This document shows, piece by piece, positions 2,887 through 15,814 of a stretch of 33,620 nucleotides of DNA. The stretch covers positions 1-33,620 of the IMG/VR virus record IMGVR_UViG_3300020473_000008. One strand, written 5' to 3'. Numbering within the stretch: position 1 is the first letter of the stretch; the number at the start of each line of letters is the position of its first letter. The notes under the pieces were generated by a model. The model had not been told where the DNA came from and did no database searches. It was given only the letters and a program-made list of their open reading frames with translations. This DNA is from a virus. The position numbers and the translations under genes are program-made.

Positions 2887-3270
2887 TTAATTTCTTGTTA
2901 GCTTTTCTGTTGCTAATTCATTAATAGATTTTTGTTTTAAGTTTTCACAATAACTATGAGCATTTTTAGATTGCACTTTACATAAAAGATAATAAGCTTT
3001 TCTTTTGGATAATTCCAATTTCAGCTTTTTATATCTTTCATCATTGTTAGCTTTAACTTTAGCTTGTGCAACAGATATAGACTCATTAGATACCTTTTCA
3101 CTTATAACAAAATCAAACATTTCCTCTTTTTGGTCTTTTGCCTCATCATAATCTATTTCAGCATTAATCAATTTTTTATCATAATGGTCTAAATAAACTA
3201 TTATCTTATGAGGGTCAAAATGAGGTGGTCTCATTTCAATATAAGTAGGTAATGAATCTTTATCGTCCAT
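2887..3270 (-). CDS. hypothetical protein, last gene of leftward operon (127 aa)
   Basis: A 127-residue soluble, highly charged protein. The N-terminal 35 residues (DSLPTYIEMRPPHFDPHKII) look ordered. The remainder is long amphipathic helix, likely coiled coil (KVKANNDERYKKLKLELSKRKAYYLL). It has Cys98 and Cys108. Its start overlaps the stop of the 3270-3635 gene (TAATG), so the two products may act together. No family was recognised. Confidence 0.7.
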   Translation of the reverse strand: MDDKDSLPTYIEMRPPHFDPHKIIVYLDHYDKKLINAEIDYDEAKDQKEEMFDFVISEKVSNESISVAQAKVKANNDERYKKLKLELSKRKAYYLLCKVQSKNAHSYCENLKQKSINELATEKLTRN

Positions 3271-3635
3271 TACTTATAGTCGTTCTGACCTAATTGTTGC
3301 TCATACTCTTGTGGGTCAAAATCAGTCGCTGGTCTTTGTGACCATTCCTGTTCGGATTGTGGCAACTGATCGTCCATTTCATGAGTAGGTGCTTTAGGTT
3401 TATTCCAAGCTGGATTTTGTTTGGTCTTATCGTAATAAGGAAACAATTTCCAACCACTATTTTTATTATCCCAAAAACCTTTCAAAACTAAATTTTGATT
3501 GTTTAGGATAACTTCTAAAATAACTCCATCTTTTTTTGTGGATTTTATTTTAGCTTGTCCGCCTGTATTATCAGATGAATTATTATAATTCTTTTTCTGA
3601 TAACCATTATTGTACTGTGCTTTATTATATTGCAT
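3270..3635 (-). CDS. hypothetical protein, possible DNA-binding partner of the nuclease (121 aa)
   Basis: A 121-residue protein with an Asn/Tyr/Gln-rich start (YNNGYQKKNYNNSS), a central ordered beta-rich part (GVILEVILNNQNLVLKGFW, about 38-56) and a disordered acidic C-tail rich in Gln, Asp and Glu. An ordered core plus acidic tail recalls single-strand DNA-binding proteins, but no OB-fold signature was identified. It lies downstream of the RecB-like nuclease in the same operon and has a good ribosome-binding site (AGGAG). The function is a guess from context. Confidence 0.65.
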   Translation of the reverse strand: MQYNKAQYNNGYQKKNYNNSSDNTGGQAKIKSTKKDGVILEVILNNQNLVLKGFWDNKNSGWKLFPYYDKTKQNPAWNKPKAPTHEMDDQLPQSEQEWSQRPATDFDPQEYEQQLGQNDYK

Positions 3636-3650
3636 CAGATTCTCCTATTG

Positions 3651-4397
3651 TTAGTATTCAACACTTTCCATTTGTTCCATAACATATTTTGCTCCAATGA
3701 AAGCATTAAACAGTTTTTTATTAAGAGGAATTTCCTTTATTTCAATTTCTGCCTCTTTTTTAGATAACTTAACTATAAAAGATTTAGAAACTTTATTTCC
3801 AGTTTCTTCCTCATATGCAAACTTATAAGCATTTAACTGCAAATAATAGTCAAATGTTATGAAGTTACTTGTCTTAATATCCATTAAAACAAGATTTCCT
3901 TTCTCATCTTTACAGATAAGATCAAGAGTACCAGCATAGTTATATTTTTTACAATAGATTTTTTTCTCTATTTCAACTACCTCGTACTTTTGTTTATTCC
4001 ACCAACCAAGAAAAGCATTCCAGCAATTAACTACTGCTTTATCCGATTGTTGCGGAATTTCTTTGCCCTTTAGATAGTCCTCAATTAGACCATGAACAAC
4101 TGAACCTACCAAAGCACCCTCATCTCTAAATGAATCAGGTTTCTTTTTAGCAGATGCAAATATTCTTTCTAATACTGCTCTATCTATTGGTTCCCCCAAA
4201 TCTAATTTTTCATTAATTAACCTTTTAACTTCATTCAAAGGTGTATTAACTAACCAATTAGTTAATTGAGGTTTTGGTATACCACGACCACAAATTCCTG
4301 TAACCGATTCTACCTTTTTATCATTAACATAATACATATGCTTATCATCATTGTAGCTTAATATTATGCCATTTTTTAGTGGGTATTTTTTCCACAT
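3651..4397 (-). CDS. PD-(D/E)XK nuclease, RecB/Cas4-like
   Basis: A 248-residue protein carrying the RecB-type nuclease pattern: H102 in VVHGLIEDYLKG, D159 in AGTLDLI, D173-I-K175 in LMDIKTS, and Q187 in YLQLNAYKFAYEEETG. These are the metal and catalytic residues of PD-(D/E)XK exonucleases used for end resection in phage recombination. The four-Cys cluster of true Cas4 is not evident. It overlaps the upstream XRE-like gene by 22 bases and starts behind GGAAAGG. No annealase of the RecT or Erf type was recognised beside it; the 3270 gene is the nearest candidate. Confidence 0.88.
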   Translation of the reverse strand: MWKKYPLKNGIILSYNDDKHMYYVNDKKVESVTGICGRGIPKPQLTNWLVNTPLNEVKRLINEKLDLGEPIDRAVLERIFASAKKKPDSFRDEGALVGSVVHGLIEDYLKGKEIPQQSDKAVVNCWNAFLGWWNKQKYEVVEIEKKIYCKKYNYAGTLDLICKDEKGNLVLMDIKTSNFITFDYYLQLNAYKFAYEEETGNKVSKSFIVKLSKKEAEIEIKEIPLNKKLFNAFIGAKYVMEQMESVEY

Positions 4398-4699
4398 TTT
4401 TTACCTTTCCAACTGAATTGTCGCCAAAGTATATTCAAATCATAATTATAATAATTTGATAAAGCAAATACTCTAGCTAAATCAGTTTTTACTCCAGATT
4501 CAAACCTATATAAATCAAAAATTGAATTGAAATATTTAGGATTGTCTTGAACTACTGCTTCAGCAGTTATTTTATTATCAAGTCTAATATTCTTAAACTT
4601 AATACCAATAATTTGATTTAAAAGTTTAGCATTAGCATTTTTATTAAATGATTCTACCATACCTTTAACCATAAAATTGGTTTTTGTTACTTTATCCAT
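4376..4699 (-). CDS. XRE-like helix-turn-helix protein, divergent
   Basis: A 107-residue protein whose middle (IKFKNIRLDNKITAEAVVQ, then YRFESG and LSNYYNYDLNILW) has the spacing of an XRE/Cro-type helix-turn-helix domain, including the R-x-E-S-G that follows the recognition helix. There is an unusual insertion-like stretch (DNPKYFNSIF) in the recognition region. It may regulate the leftward operon or assist the nuclease. ATG follows CTAGAAAGG with 5-base spacing. The HTH assignment is by pattern only. Confidence 0.6.
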   Translation of the reverse strand: MDKVTKTNFMVKGMVESFNKNANAKLLNQIIGIKFKNIRLDNKITAEAVVQDNPKYFNSIFDLYRFESGVKTDLARVFALSNYYNYDLNILWRQFSWKGKKCGKNTH

Positions 4700-4709
4700 A
4701 TATGCCTTT

Positions 4710-4985
4710 CTAGTTTAAAACCGAATGTCCACGATTAATTAAACATTTTCTATATATAGATTCATGTTGCGTATCTGCCGTAGGACTTTCAATCCAAAAA
4801 ACAATACCACCCCAAAAAGTACTATTTGTATCTGCCACCATTTTACAATGTTGCAAATCATTAGTAATTTCTGTTGCTTTGTCCGAATCAAAAGTACCAC
4901 TTCGTCCAGCCGTGTCAATAACTGGTTTATACGAACAATTAGTCAGGCAAACGCCTAGGACTAATAGGTACATTATTTTCTTCAT
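4710..4985 (-). CDS. small lipoprotein of the cell envelope
   Basis: Ninety-one residues with a lipoprotein signal: MKKIMYLLVLGVCLTNC, where LTNC is a lipobox and Cys17 would be lipidated. The mature part starts SYKPVIDTAG and holds two further cysteines (Cys47 and Cys80). It would sit on the outer or inner membrane. Being in an early-type operon away from lysis genes argues for envelope remodelling or superinfection exclusion rather than an o-spanin. It begins behind CTAGAAAGG and overlaps the 4939 gene by 47 bases. Confidence 0.78.
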   Translation of the reverse strand: MKKIMYLLVLGVCLTNCSYKPVIDTAGRSGTFDSDKATEITNDLQHCKMVADTNSTFWGGIVFWIESPTADTQHESIYRKCLINRGHSVLN

Positions 4986-8796: not shown

Positions 8797-8857
8797 TGGA
8801 TATTATATTCATGATGGAAAAATAACTTATTTATATGAAAAAGTCCGACAGGATTAG
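8714..8857 (+). CDS. possible lysine-rich small protein (47 aa)
   Basis: ATG at 8714 opens a 47-codon frame with a Lys-rich first half (MEKKKKSKKNMKNILKKKPK) and a more ordered end (NGYYIHDGKITYLYEKVRQD). Its last 23 bases overlap the HNH gene at 8835. It competes with the 8644 frame over 8714-8796. The C-terminal half looks protein-like; the N-terminal half may be an artefact of A-rich sequence. Confidence 0.38.
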   Translation: MKTHMEKKKKSKKNMKNILKKKPKKILNGYYIHDGKITYLYEKVRQD

Positions 8858-9128
8858 ATTTAACAAATTAAAAGAATTAGGTTGTGTTGCTTGTGGTTCA
8901 AATAATGTAGTAATACACCATATTAGAAAACATACAGGATTATCTTTAAGACCTGACCATCAAGATACAATTCCTTTATGTCCAAGACATCATAATATGG
9001 GTAATGAATCAATACATCTTAATAAAAAGTTGTTTGAAGAAAAATTCGGTACTGAAAAACAGCTTTTAATAAAAACAAACATAAAACTAAATCAATTAGA
9101 AAGGAGTTATTTATTTTATGAAAAATAA
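8835..9128 (+). CDS. HNH/Ref-like nuclease
   Basis: A 97-residue protein with CVACG (C17, C20) and two histidine blocks: VVIHHIRKHTG (about 26-36) and IPLCPRHHNMG (about 46-56), followed by IHLNKKLFEEKFG. This matches the Ref/DUF968-type HNH fold, in which HH and the later HH-N bind metal and cut DNA, and the cysteines hold a structural zinc. P1 Ref is a RecA-dependent nuclease; a role here in recombination or origin processing is inferred. It lies between early regulators and the replication protein. It is smaller than P1 Ref, about the catalytic core only. Confidence 0.82.
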   Translation: MKKSDRIRFNKLKELGCVACGSNNVVIHHIRKHTGLSLRPDHQDTIPLCPRHHNMGNESIHLNKKLFEEKFGTEKQLLIKTNIKLNQLERSYLFYEK

Positions 9129-10368: not shown

Positions 10369-10649
10369 AAAGAAAAAAAGCACAATATAAATTTGCCATT
10401 ATTAAAAAAAAGAAATATTATTTTTATAAAATTACATGGTTAGATATTTTAGGCGATGCAGGACATTGTACTAGCTTTGATTTTTTAGGAATGAAACCTA
10501 GTGTAATGGTAACACATGCTTATTTGTTTCAAAAAGATAAAAAATGTGTAAGAACATTTGGAACATATGAAGAAAATGATGAATTATTTAGTGATAGAAA
10601 TGTTTTTCCAAAAGGTGTAATAGTTAAAATGGAAAAAATACCTGTATGA
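10365..10649 (+). CDS. hypothetical protein upstream of the modification pair (94 aa)
   Basis: Ninety-four residues, beta-rich by eye (KKYYFYKITWLDILGDAGHC, VMVTHAYLFQKDKKCVRTFG). The C-terminal FPKGVIVKMEKIPV is a further strand. The pattern suggests a small barrel, possibly SH3- or OB-like. It is coupled by ATGA overlaps to both the 10234 gene and the ParB-like gene, so it may act with that cassette. No family was recognised. Confidence 0.68.
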   Translation: MKRKKAQYKFAIIKKKKYYFYKITWLDILGDAGHCTSFDFLGMKPSVMVTHAYLFQKDKKCVRTFGTYEENDELFSDRNVFPKGVIVKMEKIPV

Positions 10650-11182
10650 AGATTGAAGAAATAGATATTAATCTAATTAAACCATATAAAAACAATCCAA
10701 GAGAAATATCTGCTGATGCAGTAAAAAAAGTCCGTAATAGTATTTCAGAATTTGGTAATAATCAACCAATAGTTATAGACCAAGATAATTATATTGTTGT
10801 TGGTCATACAAGATGGAAAGCATTAAAAGAATTACATAAAAAAACAGCATTTGTTATTAAAAAGGATTTTGAAAAAAATAAAGCAATAGCATATAGAATA
10901 ATGGATAATCGGTCAGGACAAGAAACTAAATGGAATGAAGATTTGTTAATATCTGAATTAAATATATTAAAAGATGAAAGTTTTGATTTAGATTTAACAG
11001 GATTTGATAAATTAGAATTAGATAAATATTTATCTGATAAAGAAGCATTGGAAGATAGTTCAGAAATAACTATACCAAATAAATGTGAAGTTATAATTGA
11101 ATGTGAATCTGAAGAAAAACAACAAGAATTATATAATGAATTATCTGAAAGAGGATTAACTTGTCGAGTGTTAAATTTCTAA
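10646..11182 (+). CDS. ParB/Srx-fold protein
   Basis: A 178-residue protein with the ParB N-terminal pattern: YKNNPREIS (14-22), VRNSISEFGNNQPIVID (29-45) and YIVVGHTRWKALKEL (49-63). The middle is helical (ISELNILKDESFDLDLTGFD). The C-terminal 30 residues form a compact domain (KCEVIIECESEEKQQELYNE). There is no ParB HTH for parS binding, so a CTP/ATP-using or modification-linked role is more likely than partition. It overlaps the ABC-GNAT gene by 22 bases. ParB-like genes next to DNA-modifying genes are a known phage theme; the specific role here is inferred. Confidence 0.88.
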   Translation: MKIEEIDINLIKPYKNNPREISADAVKKVRNSISEFGNNQPIVIDQDNYIVVGHTRWKALKELHKKTAFVIKKDFEKNKAIAYRIMDNRSGQETKWNEDLLISELNILKDESFDLDLTGFDKLELDKYLSDKEALEDSSEITIPNKCEVIIECESEEKQQELYNELSERGLTCRVLNF

Positions 11183-12234
11183 AAGAAACAGAATATAAGC
11201 CAACATTTAGAACAGAACAAATATGTGGCATATATGATTTAGTACCTGAAAAAAAACTTAAAAAGGAATTTGATTTTAATATTGATTTAAATTTTGATTG
11301 GCAAGTTGGTTTAATTGTAGGAACATCTGGTAGTGGTAAAACAAGCCTAGCTAAACAATTATTTAAAGATAATTATATTAGGTCTTTTAAATGGGATAAT
11401 AATTCAGCATTTATAAATGAATTTCCAAAAGATATATCCATAAAAGAAATTTCAAAATGTTTAGCAAGTGTTGGTTTTGCTAGTCCACCTTTGTGGTTAT
11501 TACCTTATTCAGCATTATCAACAGGACAACAATTTAGAGTGGATATAGTAAGGGCATTATTACAAAATAAAGATATGGTATGCTTTGATGAATTTACCTC
11601 TGTTGTGGATAGAGATGTAGCTAAAATTGGTAGTCATTGTGTTCAAAAATTTATTAGGAAAACAAAAAAGCAATTTGTAGCCGTTTCATGCCATTATGAT
11701 ATTGTTGATTGGTTGCAACCTGATTGGATATTTGATGTAAATACAAACAAATTAACTAGGGGGTCAGCCAAGCGACCAGAAATTGACTTCAAAATATATC
11801 CAACAAGCGTTGACTCATGGGGAATGTTTAGAAACTATCATTATTTGAATACTAATATACACCGTGCATCAAAATGTTTTATTGGATATATATGGAATAA
11901 GCCTGTTGCATTTGGGGCAGTTTTACAATTTCCACACCCACATATAAAAAAAGCTAAAAGAGAACATAGAATAGTTACTTTGCCAGATTATCAAGGCATT
12001 GGATTAGGTAATAGGATAAGTGAATTTTGTGGTAAATATTTTACTAAATTGGGTTATAGATATTATTCAGTAACATCACAACCATCAATGATATATTCAA
12101 GAAATAGGAGTAAAAATTGGGTAATAAAAAGAAAATTATCTCATATAAAAGGCGATAATTCTAATTTAACGAAACATTTTAAAAAATCAGCAAGTAACCG
12201 AAGATTGACAGCCACCTTTTTATATATTAATTAA
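11161..12234 (+). CDS. ABC-type ATPase fused to GNAT acetyltransferase-like domain (candidate Mom-like)
   Basis: A 357-residue, two-domain protein. The N-terminal part is an ABC ATPase: Walker A GTSGSGKT (54-61), signature LSTGQ (119-123), Walker B DMVCFDE (138-144) and H-loop His178 (AVSCHYD). No membrane partner gene is present, so it is not a transporter. Residues about 210-357 are GNAT-like, with motif A DYQGIGLGN (276-284) preceded by REHRIVTLP. COG2401 describes such fusions, and phage Mu Mom, which converts adenine to a carbamoylmethyl form, belongs to the GNAT fold. The start is TTG at 11161, 6 bases after GAGG; no in-frame ATG lies before the Walker motifs. DNA modification is a hypothesis. 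Confidence 0.85.
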   Translation: MSSVKFLKETEYKPTFRTEQICGIYDLVPEKKLKKEFDFNIDLNFDWQVGLIVGTSGSGKTSLAKQLFKDNYIRSFKWDNNSAFINEFPKDISIKEISKCLASVGFASPPLWLLPYSALSTGQQFRVDIVRALLQNKDMVCFDEFTSVVDRDVAKIGSHCVQKFIRKTKKQFVAVSCHYDIVDWLQPDWIFDVNTNKLTRGSAKRPEIDFKIYPTSVDSWGMFRNYHYLNTNIHRASKCFIGYIWNKPVAFGAVLQFPHPHIKKAKREHRIVTLPDYQGIGLGNRISEFCGKYFTKLGYRYYSVTSQPSMIYSRNRSKNWVIKRKLSHIKGDNSNLTKHFKKSASNRRLTATFLYIN

Positions 12235-12249
12235 CACAAAAAGGACATA

Positions 12250-12591
12250 ATGGCACGACCACTTAAAAAAGTAGATAGCGAAGCAATAAAGAAATTAGCA
12301 CAATTACATTGCACTTATGAAGAAATTGCAGAATTTTGTGAGGTTTCAACAAAGACATTACAAAGGAATTATGTCCACCTAATAAAAAAGGGGCGTGAGA
12401 TGGGCAGAATTAGTTTAAGACGTGCTCAATTTGAGAAAGCATTAGGTGGTAATGTAGCTATGCAAATATGGTTAGGAAAGCAACATTTAGACCAAAAAGA
12501 TAAAATTGAACAAACTAATTTTAATGAACCATTACCATTAATAATTGATGCAAAAGCAGAAGAAATAAAAGATGGCAAAAAGAAAAGGTAA
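12250..12591 (+). CDS. small terminase subunit
   Basis: A 113-residue protein with an N-terminal helix-turn-helix (EAIKKLAQLHCTYEEIAEFC, EVSTKTLQRNY, residues 10-37) and a middle helix (RISLRRAQFEKALGGNVAMQ) followed by IWLGKQHLDQKDK. This is the usual layout of small terminase proteins, which recognise phage DNA and pass it to the large subunit. The ribosome-binding site AAAGGA is present. Unusually, the large subunit is 2 kb downstream with nine small genes between. Confidence 0.82.
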   Translation: MARPLKKVDSEAIKKLAQLHCTYEEIAEFCEVSTKTLQRNYVHLIKKGREMGRISLRRAQFEKALGGNVAMQIWLGKQHLDQKDKIEQTNFNEPLPLIIDAKAEEIKDGKKKR

Positions 12592-14388: not shown

Positions 14389-14610
14389 ATGAAATGGATT
14401 TTACTATACCAAGTATGCTCATTAGTTAATAATTTTTGTTATCCACCATTAACAGATAGAGAATTATTAAGTTATTCAGAATGTGTAGCCAAAGGTGCAG
14501 AAAAAACTATTACATTAGTACAAAAAGCACCTAAAGAATTTGACGAACAAAAATATATAGTTAAATATTGGTGTTTAAGTGAAAATAACATTAACAAAAC
14601 CCCAACATAA
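14389..14610 (+). CDS. small secreted or periplasmic protein with paired cysteines
   Basis: Seventy-three residues with a short hydrophobic start (MKWILLYQVCSLVNN) and four cysteines (VCS, FCYPP, SECVAKG, YWCLSE). The pattern suggests export with disulfide bonds. Related short proteins upstream of the large terminase gene are common in marine phages in my recollection. It overlaps the terminase start by 32 bases. Confidence 0.65.
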   Translation: MKWILLYQVCSLVNNFCYPPLTDRELLSYSECVAKGAEKTITLVQKAPKEFDEQKYIVKYWCLSENNINKTPT

Positions 14611-15814
14611 AGTTTCAAAGAGTAATAAAAGATTTAGGGTATTAGTATCAGGCAGAAGATTTGGTAAAACCTATTTATGTATTACTGAAATGATGAAATA
14701 TGCAACCCAAGTTCGAAAGAATATATGGTATGTTGCACCAACATTTAAAATGGCTAGAGAAATTGTATGGTCTAAATTAAAACAAATGTTAGCAAGTTTT
14801 AATTGGATTGAATCTATTAATGAAACTAATTTATCAATTAGGATTAAAAGAACAGGAAGTATTATATCCTTAAAAGGTTGTGAAAATTATGATGCTTTGC
14901 GTGGAGTAGGTATTGATTTTTTAATATTAGATGAGTTTGCTGATATTGATGAAAAGGCTTGGACAGAAGTATTAAGGGCATCTATTGCTGATACAATGGG
15001 TGATGTTTTAATGTGTGGTTCTCCAAAGGGCTTTGGTAATTGGTCATACCGTATGTATGAAAAAGGTAAAAGAGATAATGAATGGGATAGTTTTCAATTT
15101 ACTACATTACAAGGTGGAATGGTATCATCAGAAGAAATAGAACAAGCAAAACAAGATATTGATATAAGAACATTTAGACAAGAATTTGAGGGTAGTTTTG
15201 AAAATTATGCTGGTGCTGTTTATTATAATTTCCATGCTGTTGATAATGTTAAACCAAAAAATATAGATTGGTCTAAACCTTTACATATAGGATTGGATTT
15301 TAATGTGGATCCAATGAGTGCTTGTGTGGCTCAATTAGAAAAAGATACAATTCATTTTGTTGATGAAATAGTTATTTATTCAAGTAATACAGATGAAATG
15401 GTTGAGGAAATACGAAACAGATATGGAACAAAACAAAAAATATTTGTTTATCCTGACCCAGCTTGTAGGCAAAGAAAAACCTCTGCTGGTGGTAAAACTG
15501 ATTTAACAATATTACAAAATGCTGGTTTTAATGTAAAATGTAAATTAAAACATAGTCCAATAAGAGATAGAATCAATGCAGTAAATTCAAGATTAAAGTC
15601 AGCAGATGGAAAGCGTTATATTTTTATCTCGCCATCTTGCAAAATTATGATAAAAGGTTTACAAAGACAAATATACAAGGAAAATACAAATATTCCTGAT
15701 AAAGAAGAAGGCTATGATCATATGAATGACAGCATTGGATATTTAATTGAAATTGTTAAACCATTAATAGCACAAAATATACCATATAAACCAATAAGAT
15801 GGACGCATAGATAA
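14579..15814 (+). CDS. terL: large terminase subunit (DNA packaging ATPase/nuclease)
   Basis: A 411-residue packaging motor. ATPase domain: Walker A-like SGRRFGKT (24-31), Walker B LILDEF (115-120) with catalytic Glu119, and coupling motif GSPKGFGNW (147-155). Nuclease domain, RNase H-like: D240 in GLDFNVDP, D293 in YPDPA, and D380/D384 in YDHMNDS. It translocates DNA into proheads through the portal and cuts concatemers. The start is GTG at 14579, which puts the usual KITLTKPQ segment just before Walker A; it overlaps the preceding gene. Domain order and length are complete. Confidence 0.96.
   Translation: MKITLTKPQHKVSKSNKRFRVLVSGRRFGKTYLCITEMMKYATQVRKNIWYVAPTFKMAREIVWSKLKQMLASFNWIESINETNLSIRIKRTGSIISLKGCENYDALRGVGIDFLILDEFADIDEKAWTEVLRASIADTMGDVLMCGSPKGFGNWSYRMYEKGKRDNEWDSFQFTTLQGGMVSSEEIEQAKQDIDIRTFRQEFEGSFENYAGAVYYNFHAVDNVKPKNIDWSKPLHIGLDFNVDPMSACVAQLEKDTIHFVDEIVIYSSNTDEMVEEIRNRYGTKQKIFVYPDPACRQRKTSAGGKTDLTILQNAGFNVKCKLKHSPIRDRINAVNSRLKSADGKRYIFISPSCKIMIKGLQRQIYKENTNIPDKEEGYDHMNDSIGYLIEIVKPLIAQNIPYKPIRWTHR

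Follow-up and report, generated by a model that had tools for sequence, protein, structure and literature searches.

Positions 1 to 33,620 of the IMG/VR virus record IMGVR_UViG_3300020473_000008, here called the window (the whole stretch of 33,620 nucleotides (nt) that was analysed), carry a gene for a ParB/Srx-fold protein that overlaps a gene in which an ABC ATPase is fused to a GNAT acyltransferase domain. The pair is a real, widespread and conserved cassette, and is a member of a kind that has been predicted but is uncharacterised. We consider it likely that the cassette modifies DNA, and read it as a predicted phage DNA-base acylation cassette, because the domain pair is the subject of a published prediction, because the fusion is exchanged with Mom of phage Mu and its relatives and can share an operon with it, and because its ParB partner also occurs beside Mom and in methyltransferase families. 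Of the original prediction, which proposed a Mom-like DNA modification system, the role in DNA modification thus gains support and the homology to Mom does not. If the reading is correct, phages make wide use of an ATP-driven system for acylating DNA for which no product is known.

The core of this hypothesis, that an ABC-GNAT protein acylates DNA, is not new, since it was predicted by Iyer, Zhang, Burroughs and Aravind in 2013, as cited in a review (PMC7824862). The authors of the review state that in previous work they had found a GNAT domain paired with an ABC ATPase and had predicted that it makes an acyl modification, so far uncharacterised, on a base in DNA; Tenacibaculum phage pT24 is named for that system. 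The window cassette has the same domain pair, with intact ATPase and acyl-CoA motifs, and has kin in pT24: the window query matches the phage (H27/H28) at 36.5% over 84%, the accession named in the review not itself being matched. The PHROG library gives the family that contains the window fusion, phrog_11143, without a function. The accessory genes and junction slippage described below were not found in the literature searched, which excluded Iyer 2013 and Krishnan 2020, and their novelty is unproven.

Distribution and sampling of the cassette

Relatives of the fusion were found by tblastn in 58 of 50,697 phage records; in 43 of these a single place accounts for at least 80% of the query, and seven, from Rhizobium, match in the ABC part only. 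The hosts of the fusion phages include Gordonia, Streptococcus, Oenococcus, Lactococcus, Leptospira, Porphyromonas and Aeromonas. Among the carriers in culture are Gordonia/Rhodococcus phage Jace, lactococcal P335, Leptospira biflexa LE3/LE4, Pseudomonas Komp_PAO1_1 and Gordonia phages of the Ligma type, in which the fusion is accompanied by a formyltransferase relative. At least 596 of the 600 matches listed from viral contigs are relatives, and contigs of bacterial and archaeal genomes hold 440. The best 80 of these 440 (L100-L179, where L numbers denote individual loci) include many from planctomycetes and Nonomuraea. Of 66 genome representatives, 40 have a terminase-like gene no more than 9 kb away, and the others may not be prophage.

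The loci compared here are not a random sample. They comprise the best 80 of each of three query-centred scans of viral contigs and one scan of genomes, together with a single-protein scan (7 loci) and chosen phage matches, and were de-duplicated at 90% identity to 261 loci, window included. Open reading frames (ORFs) under 200 amino acids (aa) were dropped, as were loci with less than 600 nt upstream from the ParB count, leaving 231, and three loci from the tract count, for which 258 were kept; the tree holds 116 of 255 usable sequences.

The fusion protein and its overlap with the ParB gene

Both genes are on the plus strand. The ParB gene (10646-11182, ATG start) encodes 178 aa and the fusion gene (11161-12234, TTG start) 357 aa, and they share the 22 nt from 11161 to 11182, as described in the original prediction. 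Starts at exactly the same spacing, 22 nt before the ParB stop, are found in 114 of 229 ParB/fusion pairs at the other loci (ATG in 86, GTG in 26, TTG in 2), and this, with the Shine-Dalgarno-like AGAGG situated 6 nt upstream (11150-11154), makes the TTG start in the window credible. Because the arrangement is conserved across many loci, chance is excluded and the arrangement seen in the window is confirmed.

The claim of a complete ABC ATPase fused to a GNAT-like domain is also upheld, by profile matches, model folds and invariant motifs. The ABC part (residues 1-205; 11161-11775) matches Pfam ABC_tran (PF00005) at E 6.9e-9, above the cut-off, and in an AlphaFold2 model of the fusion based on 104 sequences (mean pLDDT 93.6) it folds like ABC nucleotide-binding domains (NBDs), with Z up to 15.5 (VIA, whole-protein model). 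Walker A K60, signature S120 and G122, Walker B D143 and E144, D-loop D150 and H178 are identical in 104/104 aligned relatives. The match of the fusion to phrog_11143 (E 5e-98) extends over residues 14-356. The GNAT domain (residues 208-357; 11782-12231) contains the acyl-CoA motif DYQGIGLG. Here the Pfam matches, to Acetyltransf_7 (4.9e-4) and Acetyltransf_1 (1.1e-3), fall below their cut-offs, and the assignment therefore rests on fold: in the whole-protein model the domain matches GNAT structures, with 1y9k at Z 14.4 (root-mean-square deviation (rmsd) 3.5, 135 residues aligned). Since the search with that model returned mostly ABC matches, the GNAT domain was folded separately, giving 1y9k at Z 14.0 (rmsd 3.7, 138 aligned) and 5isv at Z 13.6. 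Q278 and G279 of the acyl-CoA motif, as well as Y228 and R270, are invariant in 104/104 relatives, and H227 is kept in 101.

One alternative is that the ABC domain is a DNA-structural ATPase of the SMC/SbcC kind, or an ABC-F-like one, that acts in packaging, repair or translation with the GNAT domain as an accessory. Terminases lie nearby, the best NCBIfam score of the fusion, though it falls far short of the cut-off, is that of an ABC-F family (E 1.7e-9), and SMC_N matches weakly (2.3e-3, below the Pfam cut-off). The model, however, has one ABC domain directly before the GNAT domain and neither a coiled coil nor a second NBD, and the invariance of Q278-G279 and the exchange with Mom also speak against it; we hold this alternative to be quite improbable. 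A transporter ATPase, as which phage records annotate some relatives (iron siderophore or hemin transporter subunits), is harder still to credit, and we give it almost no weight: the usual partners are ParB and terminase and a GNAT domain is fused on, although no dedicated scan for membrane proteins was run.

ParB as a partner of DNA modification enzymes

The pairing proposed from the window recurs well beyond it. A ParB gene lies upstream of the fusion on the same strand in 212 of 231 eligible de-duplicated loci, at a distance of 100 nt or less in 186; before de-duplication it was found in 67/67 viral and 67/71 genome loci. When Mom loci were handled identically, ParB was found upstream in 2 of 58, and without de-duplication or strand rules it lies beside Mom in 3 of 80 Mom loci. 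In Microbacterium phage Antuna ParB is next to Mom. At loci L390, L391, L396 and L184 ParB adjoins a true Mom, with the frames overlapping by 23 nt in L391, 4 nt in L396 and 8 nt in L184.

The window ParB matches PF02195 at E 4.6e-10, above the cut-off, and phrog_620 at 5.3e-46, and it also matches the DNA methyltransferase family phrog_498 (1.1e-36, profile positions 33-173 of 633) and the PADLOC MTase_II model (E 1.7e-23, positions 8-146 of 436). Many ParB matches in phages fall under annotated methylases, among the 60 of 449 records listed. According to excerpts of a 2025 study, contigs of the cytosine carboxymethyltransferase CmoX contain 1660 ParBc sequences, and the ParBc domain is often fused to DNA methyltransferases with function unknown (PMC12783734); an excerpt of a 2026 paper describes DpdB as a ParB-like ATPase in 7-deazaguanine insertion (PMC12839542). 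ParB-like proteins are thus recurrent partners of DNA modification enzymes, and the ABC-GNAT fusion fits the series, the window differing in that its ParB forms a chain of its own and is paired with an ABC-GNAT protein. The window ParB has the sequence GHTRWKA, which fits GxxRxxA, a pattern that we take to mark the CTP-binding box of ParB proteins and that fits 111 of 252 ParB ORFs.

Exchange with Mom

In related phages one and the same locus can hold either the fusion or Mom. The tail proteins of Porphyromonas phages 008a and 015a are 94.7, 84.4 and 65.5% identical, and the genome end that follows these tail genes holds the fusion and a formyltransferase in one phage and Mom in the other. In Enterococcus phages 9184 (fusion) and Q69 (Mom) each gene follows a polymerase, the two polymerases being 57% identical. 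The two proteins can also be encoded in one operon, as in viral contig L418, where the frames of Mom (2974-3624) and, downstream of it, the fusion (3621-4772) overlap by 4 nt. The position of the fusion after baseplate and tail-fibre genes in Pseudomonas phage Komp_PAO1_1 and viral contig L258 is likewise that of com-mom in Mu, which sits after the tail-fibre region. In the Enterococcus 9184 locus (L180, 5621-6478) the GNAT frame holds 80 residues that are 62.5% identical to the Q69 polymerase, and judging from these residues the cassette looks as if it had been inserted into the end of the polymerase gene.

Fold and active-site residues offer a second point of comparison. Excerpts of the review place Mom in the GNAT superfamily (PMC7824862), and the fusion shares this type of fold with the Mom family, which is a weak sign of membership because many families do so. 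Six Mom proteins share conserved H-Y-S, ELNR, SFAD and YxAxN motifs; SFAD and YxAxN are absent from the fusion, in which only the HY and an Arg have counterparts. In both proteins H-Y follows the first helix and an Arg lies near strand four, these being H227, Y228 and R270 in the fusion and H58, Y59 and R111 in Mu Mom (numbered on a 241-residue ORF); the positions were matched by eye, and for H-Y also by hhalign, whose local alignment puts HYL of the fusion in register with HYS of Mom. The three Mu Mom residues presumably matter for activity.

The comparison with Mom of Mu (phrog_1384; structure 8bv8) runs both ways. The two have the GNAT superfamily, the H-Y and Arg residues, the locus and, in one instance, the operon in common; they differ in that Mom has no ABC part and rarely a ParB neighbour, the fusion lacks SFAD and YxAxN, and no significant sequence kinship connects them. 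We read the fusion as a different GNAT that does the same work as Mom, and not as Mom itself.

Accessory genes

Some relatives are followed by genes that suggest an acyl donor. At 6 of the 261 loci, aspartate decarboxylase (PanD) and then a relative of family III CoA-transferases lie downstream of the fusion (L012, 6071-7182; L094, 1796-2826; L199; L214; L232; L122/L123), in phage Jace (L188, the same as L012) immediately after it, and L133 has the CoA-transferase relative alone, about 1.9 kb downstream. Pfam E-values for four proteins of each kind are 2e-33 to 1.7e-30 for PanD and 3e-9 to 7.8e-5 for the CoA-transferase, the last just below the cut-off. Duplicates included, the G-S site of PanD is present in 9 of 10 ORFs and an F-D-x-x-A-Q motif, whose Asp we read from the sequence as the probable catalytic Asp of CoA-transferases, in 11 of 12; the misses come from fragments of L123, a locus that looks broken. 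Placing the trait on the tree requires five changes, at least three of them forced for PanD by well-supported branches, and the pairing with the fusion has therefore arisen, been exchanged or been lost repeatedly. Its clustering on the tree is weak (36 of 500 shuffles were as low). These genes suggest a possible supply of beta-alanyl-CoA, and the simplest chemistry would run from aspartate through beta-alanine and beta-alanyl-CoA to beta-alanyl-DNA. We know of no description of beta-alanine-aminoacylated DNA.

A match named aspartate 1-decarboxylase at rank 9 of the BFVD fold list raised the idea that the GNAT domain activates PanD in the manner of PanZ. This idea was rejected, as it does not explain a family in which most loci are without PanD.

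A second accessory gene encodes a Formyl_trans_N protein, found downstream of the fusion at 51 of 261 loci (for example L017, 6074-6691) and confirmed with Pfam on four. On the tree of the sample this trait forms almost one clade (2 changes). Among phage records, 28 have a formyltransferase relative and 13 of these also hold the fusion (10 from Gordonia, Komp_PAO1_1, MT835523 and MT836387); the remaining records are mostly unannotated. HPSxLP is present in 51/51 of the relatives and a loose Asp pattern fits 29/51. At one locus, L295, a thymidylate synthase relative (3995-4714) lies about 290 nt before the fusion.

A-tracts and split frames at the ABC/GNAT junction

A run of nine to eleven A residues (A9-A11) lies within 75 nt after the conserved WLxPDW motif, at the ABC/GNAT junction, in 24 of 258 loci. 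The 19,350 bases of linker thus hold 24 such runs, while 2.53 Mb of other sequence hold 32. Two arrangements occur. In 15 of the 24 loci (L056, L063, L072, L076, L078, L079, L081, L082, L083, L086, L089, L091, L093, L098 and L099) both parts form one fused gene, in which slipping by -1 would bring up a stop after one codon and yield the ABC part alone. In the other nine (L304, L305, L306, L307, L308, L309, L315, L316 and L328) the ABC frame runs on for another 28-29 codons before its stop, and it is the -1 frame that leads into GNAT. The fused set is one clade on the tree (SH-aLRT 97) and the split set needs three changes, from which at least two origins of the tract follow. Codon use is unlikely to account for 15 identical CAA AAA AAA AAT stretches (log10 P -4.3, with related loci treated as independent although they are not), and errors in assembling homopolymers are the weaker explanation because 22 of the 24 tracts are 10 long. 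These features would fit tracts that are poised for slippage, by the ribosome or by RNA polymerase, to give both ABC-only and ABC-GNAT products. The tract resembles what we take to be the slippage tract of Thermus dnaX. As the window is without an A9-A11 run at the junction, slippage would be a trait of relatives and not of the window locus.

Frames are split in other ways as well. The ABC and GNAT parts are in different frames in phages of Streptococcus, Lactococcus, Oenococcus and Enterococcus, and are annotated as two genes in Thomasclavelia phage TR-TP2. In six of these loci (L010, L011, L335, L336, L338 and L339, from Streptococcus, Lactococcus and Oenococcus) the frames differ by -1, and a single frameshift motif was sought and rejected, no canonical heptamer being common to all six: A AAA AAG is found at codon 204 of L336 and A AAT TTA at codon 219 of L010, L011, L336 and L339, and an in-frame T-TTT, read by eye, is present in all six. 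The split genes of L300, L301, L303 and L330 may be sequencing errors, and that of L008 is cut by the contig end.

Evidence against the reading and the protein substrate alternative

Several results weigh against the reading of the cassette as a DNA-base acylation system. The first concern kinship with Mom, which the original prediction had raised and for which we find no support. A PHROG profile search gave no match to phrog_1384 at E of 0.1 or less, and hhalign gave the fusion a probability of 0.9% against Mom, or 5.9% with a deep alignment of 80 more Mom loci, neither of them significant. In fold, according to the models (Foldseek, VIA), the GNAT domain is nearest to ordinary protein or small-molecule acetyltransferases, with 1y9k, RimI and SpeG ranking best and Naa50 and NatA subunits also among the neighbours; this goes halfway towards the outcome that the original prediction had named as refuting it. 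The BFVD fold list includes Mom S4TTR0 (E 8.7e-5) at rank 32; 8bv8 is not in the best 50 PDB fold matches listed, which is no evidence of absence.

The ParB partner is usual but dispensable, since 19 of 231 eligible loci are without it, including those of Komp_PAO1_1, PX29 and Nonlabens P12024S, and eight of these 19 are formyltransferase loci (of which 47 were eligible). Furthermore, the ParB profile was built from the ParBs of fusion loci and so favours the contrast with Mom, though it still detects the Mom-linked ParB of Antuna. With respect to the donor, PanD is not exclusive to the fusion: of the 15 phage records that match PanD, 13 lie outside the 58 fusion records. The search of the window turned up no accessory donor gene, and most relatives have none nearby either. 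In the formyltransferase relatives the position that we take to be the usual catalytic Asn site is occupied by G (43 proteins), I (4), A (2) or V (2) in the set of 51, and never by Asn, which weakens the case for a plain formylase; judging from these residues, their chemistry may be other than formylation.

The fold neighbours bear most directly on an alternative in which the GNAT domain, like phiKMV Rac, acylates a protein and the ABC domain is an allosteric switch; the protein could be ParB, a subunit of the terminase or some factor of the host. RimI, Naa50 and the NatA subunits would fit such a role, and excerpts of the review note that Rac acts on RNA polymerase and that phage GNATs are predicted to modify host proteins (PMC7824862). 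Set against this are the exchange and shared operon with Mom, a ParB partner in common with DNA methyltransferases and Mom, and the amino-acid and CoA genes linked to some relatives, which are a poor fit to plain protein acetylation from acetyl-CoA. Of the alternatives considered we find protein acylation the most plausible, but unlikely all the same.

Proposed mechanism

On the DNA acylation reading, acyl-CoA would give up its acyl group to the GNAT domain, which would pass the group on to an amine of a base in DNA. The ABC domain, driven by ATP and probably dimeric, would act with ParB to load or position the enzyme on DNA. We infer in this way DNA as the substrate, the kind of base and acyl group, the roles of ATP and ParB, and a protective effect, in which the acyl mark would shield the phage genome from restriction. 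The position of the genes suggests that the mark would be added before packaging. Mom, with which the cassette is exchanged, would do the same job elsewhere. In some relatives the donor may be made by the phage, aspartate decarboxylase yielding beta-alanine, the CoA-transferase charging it, and the GNAT domain placing the beta-alanyl group on DNA.

A fuller scheme joins these parts, and we put it forward tentatively, as a possibility that we rather doubt. PanD and a minimal family III CoA-transferase would supply beta-alanyl-CoA, from which the ABC-GNAT protein would place beta-alanyl groups on DNA bases; elsewhere a formyl-tetrahydrofolate-type enzyme would tailor the group; and slippage on the A10 tract would set the ratio of ABC-only to ABC-GNAT products, presumably as in dnaX. 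The variant with PanD and CoA-transferase names a testable chemical group, and its genes are present in cultured phages.

Neighbouring genes

The next gene after the fusion encodes the small terminase subunit (12250-12591, plus strand; phrog_309, E 7.2e-8), as had been proposed, and the large subunit, TerL, is encoded further downstream on the same strand (14579-15814; PF03237, 4.1e-11; phrog_2, 1.3e-46). In the first 2.5 kb downstream of the fusion, 121 of the 182 viral representatives and 29 of the 66 from genomes have a terminase-like gene, so that a position next to the packaging genes is common and not peculiar to the window. Elsewhere in the window are a metallophosphoesterase (1229-1930), an exonuclease (3654-4397, minus strand) and a RecA-dependent nuclease relative (8835-9128).

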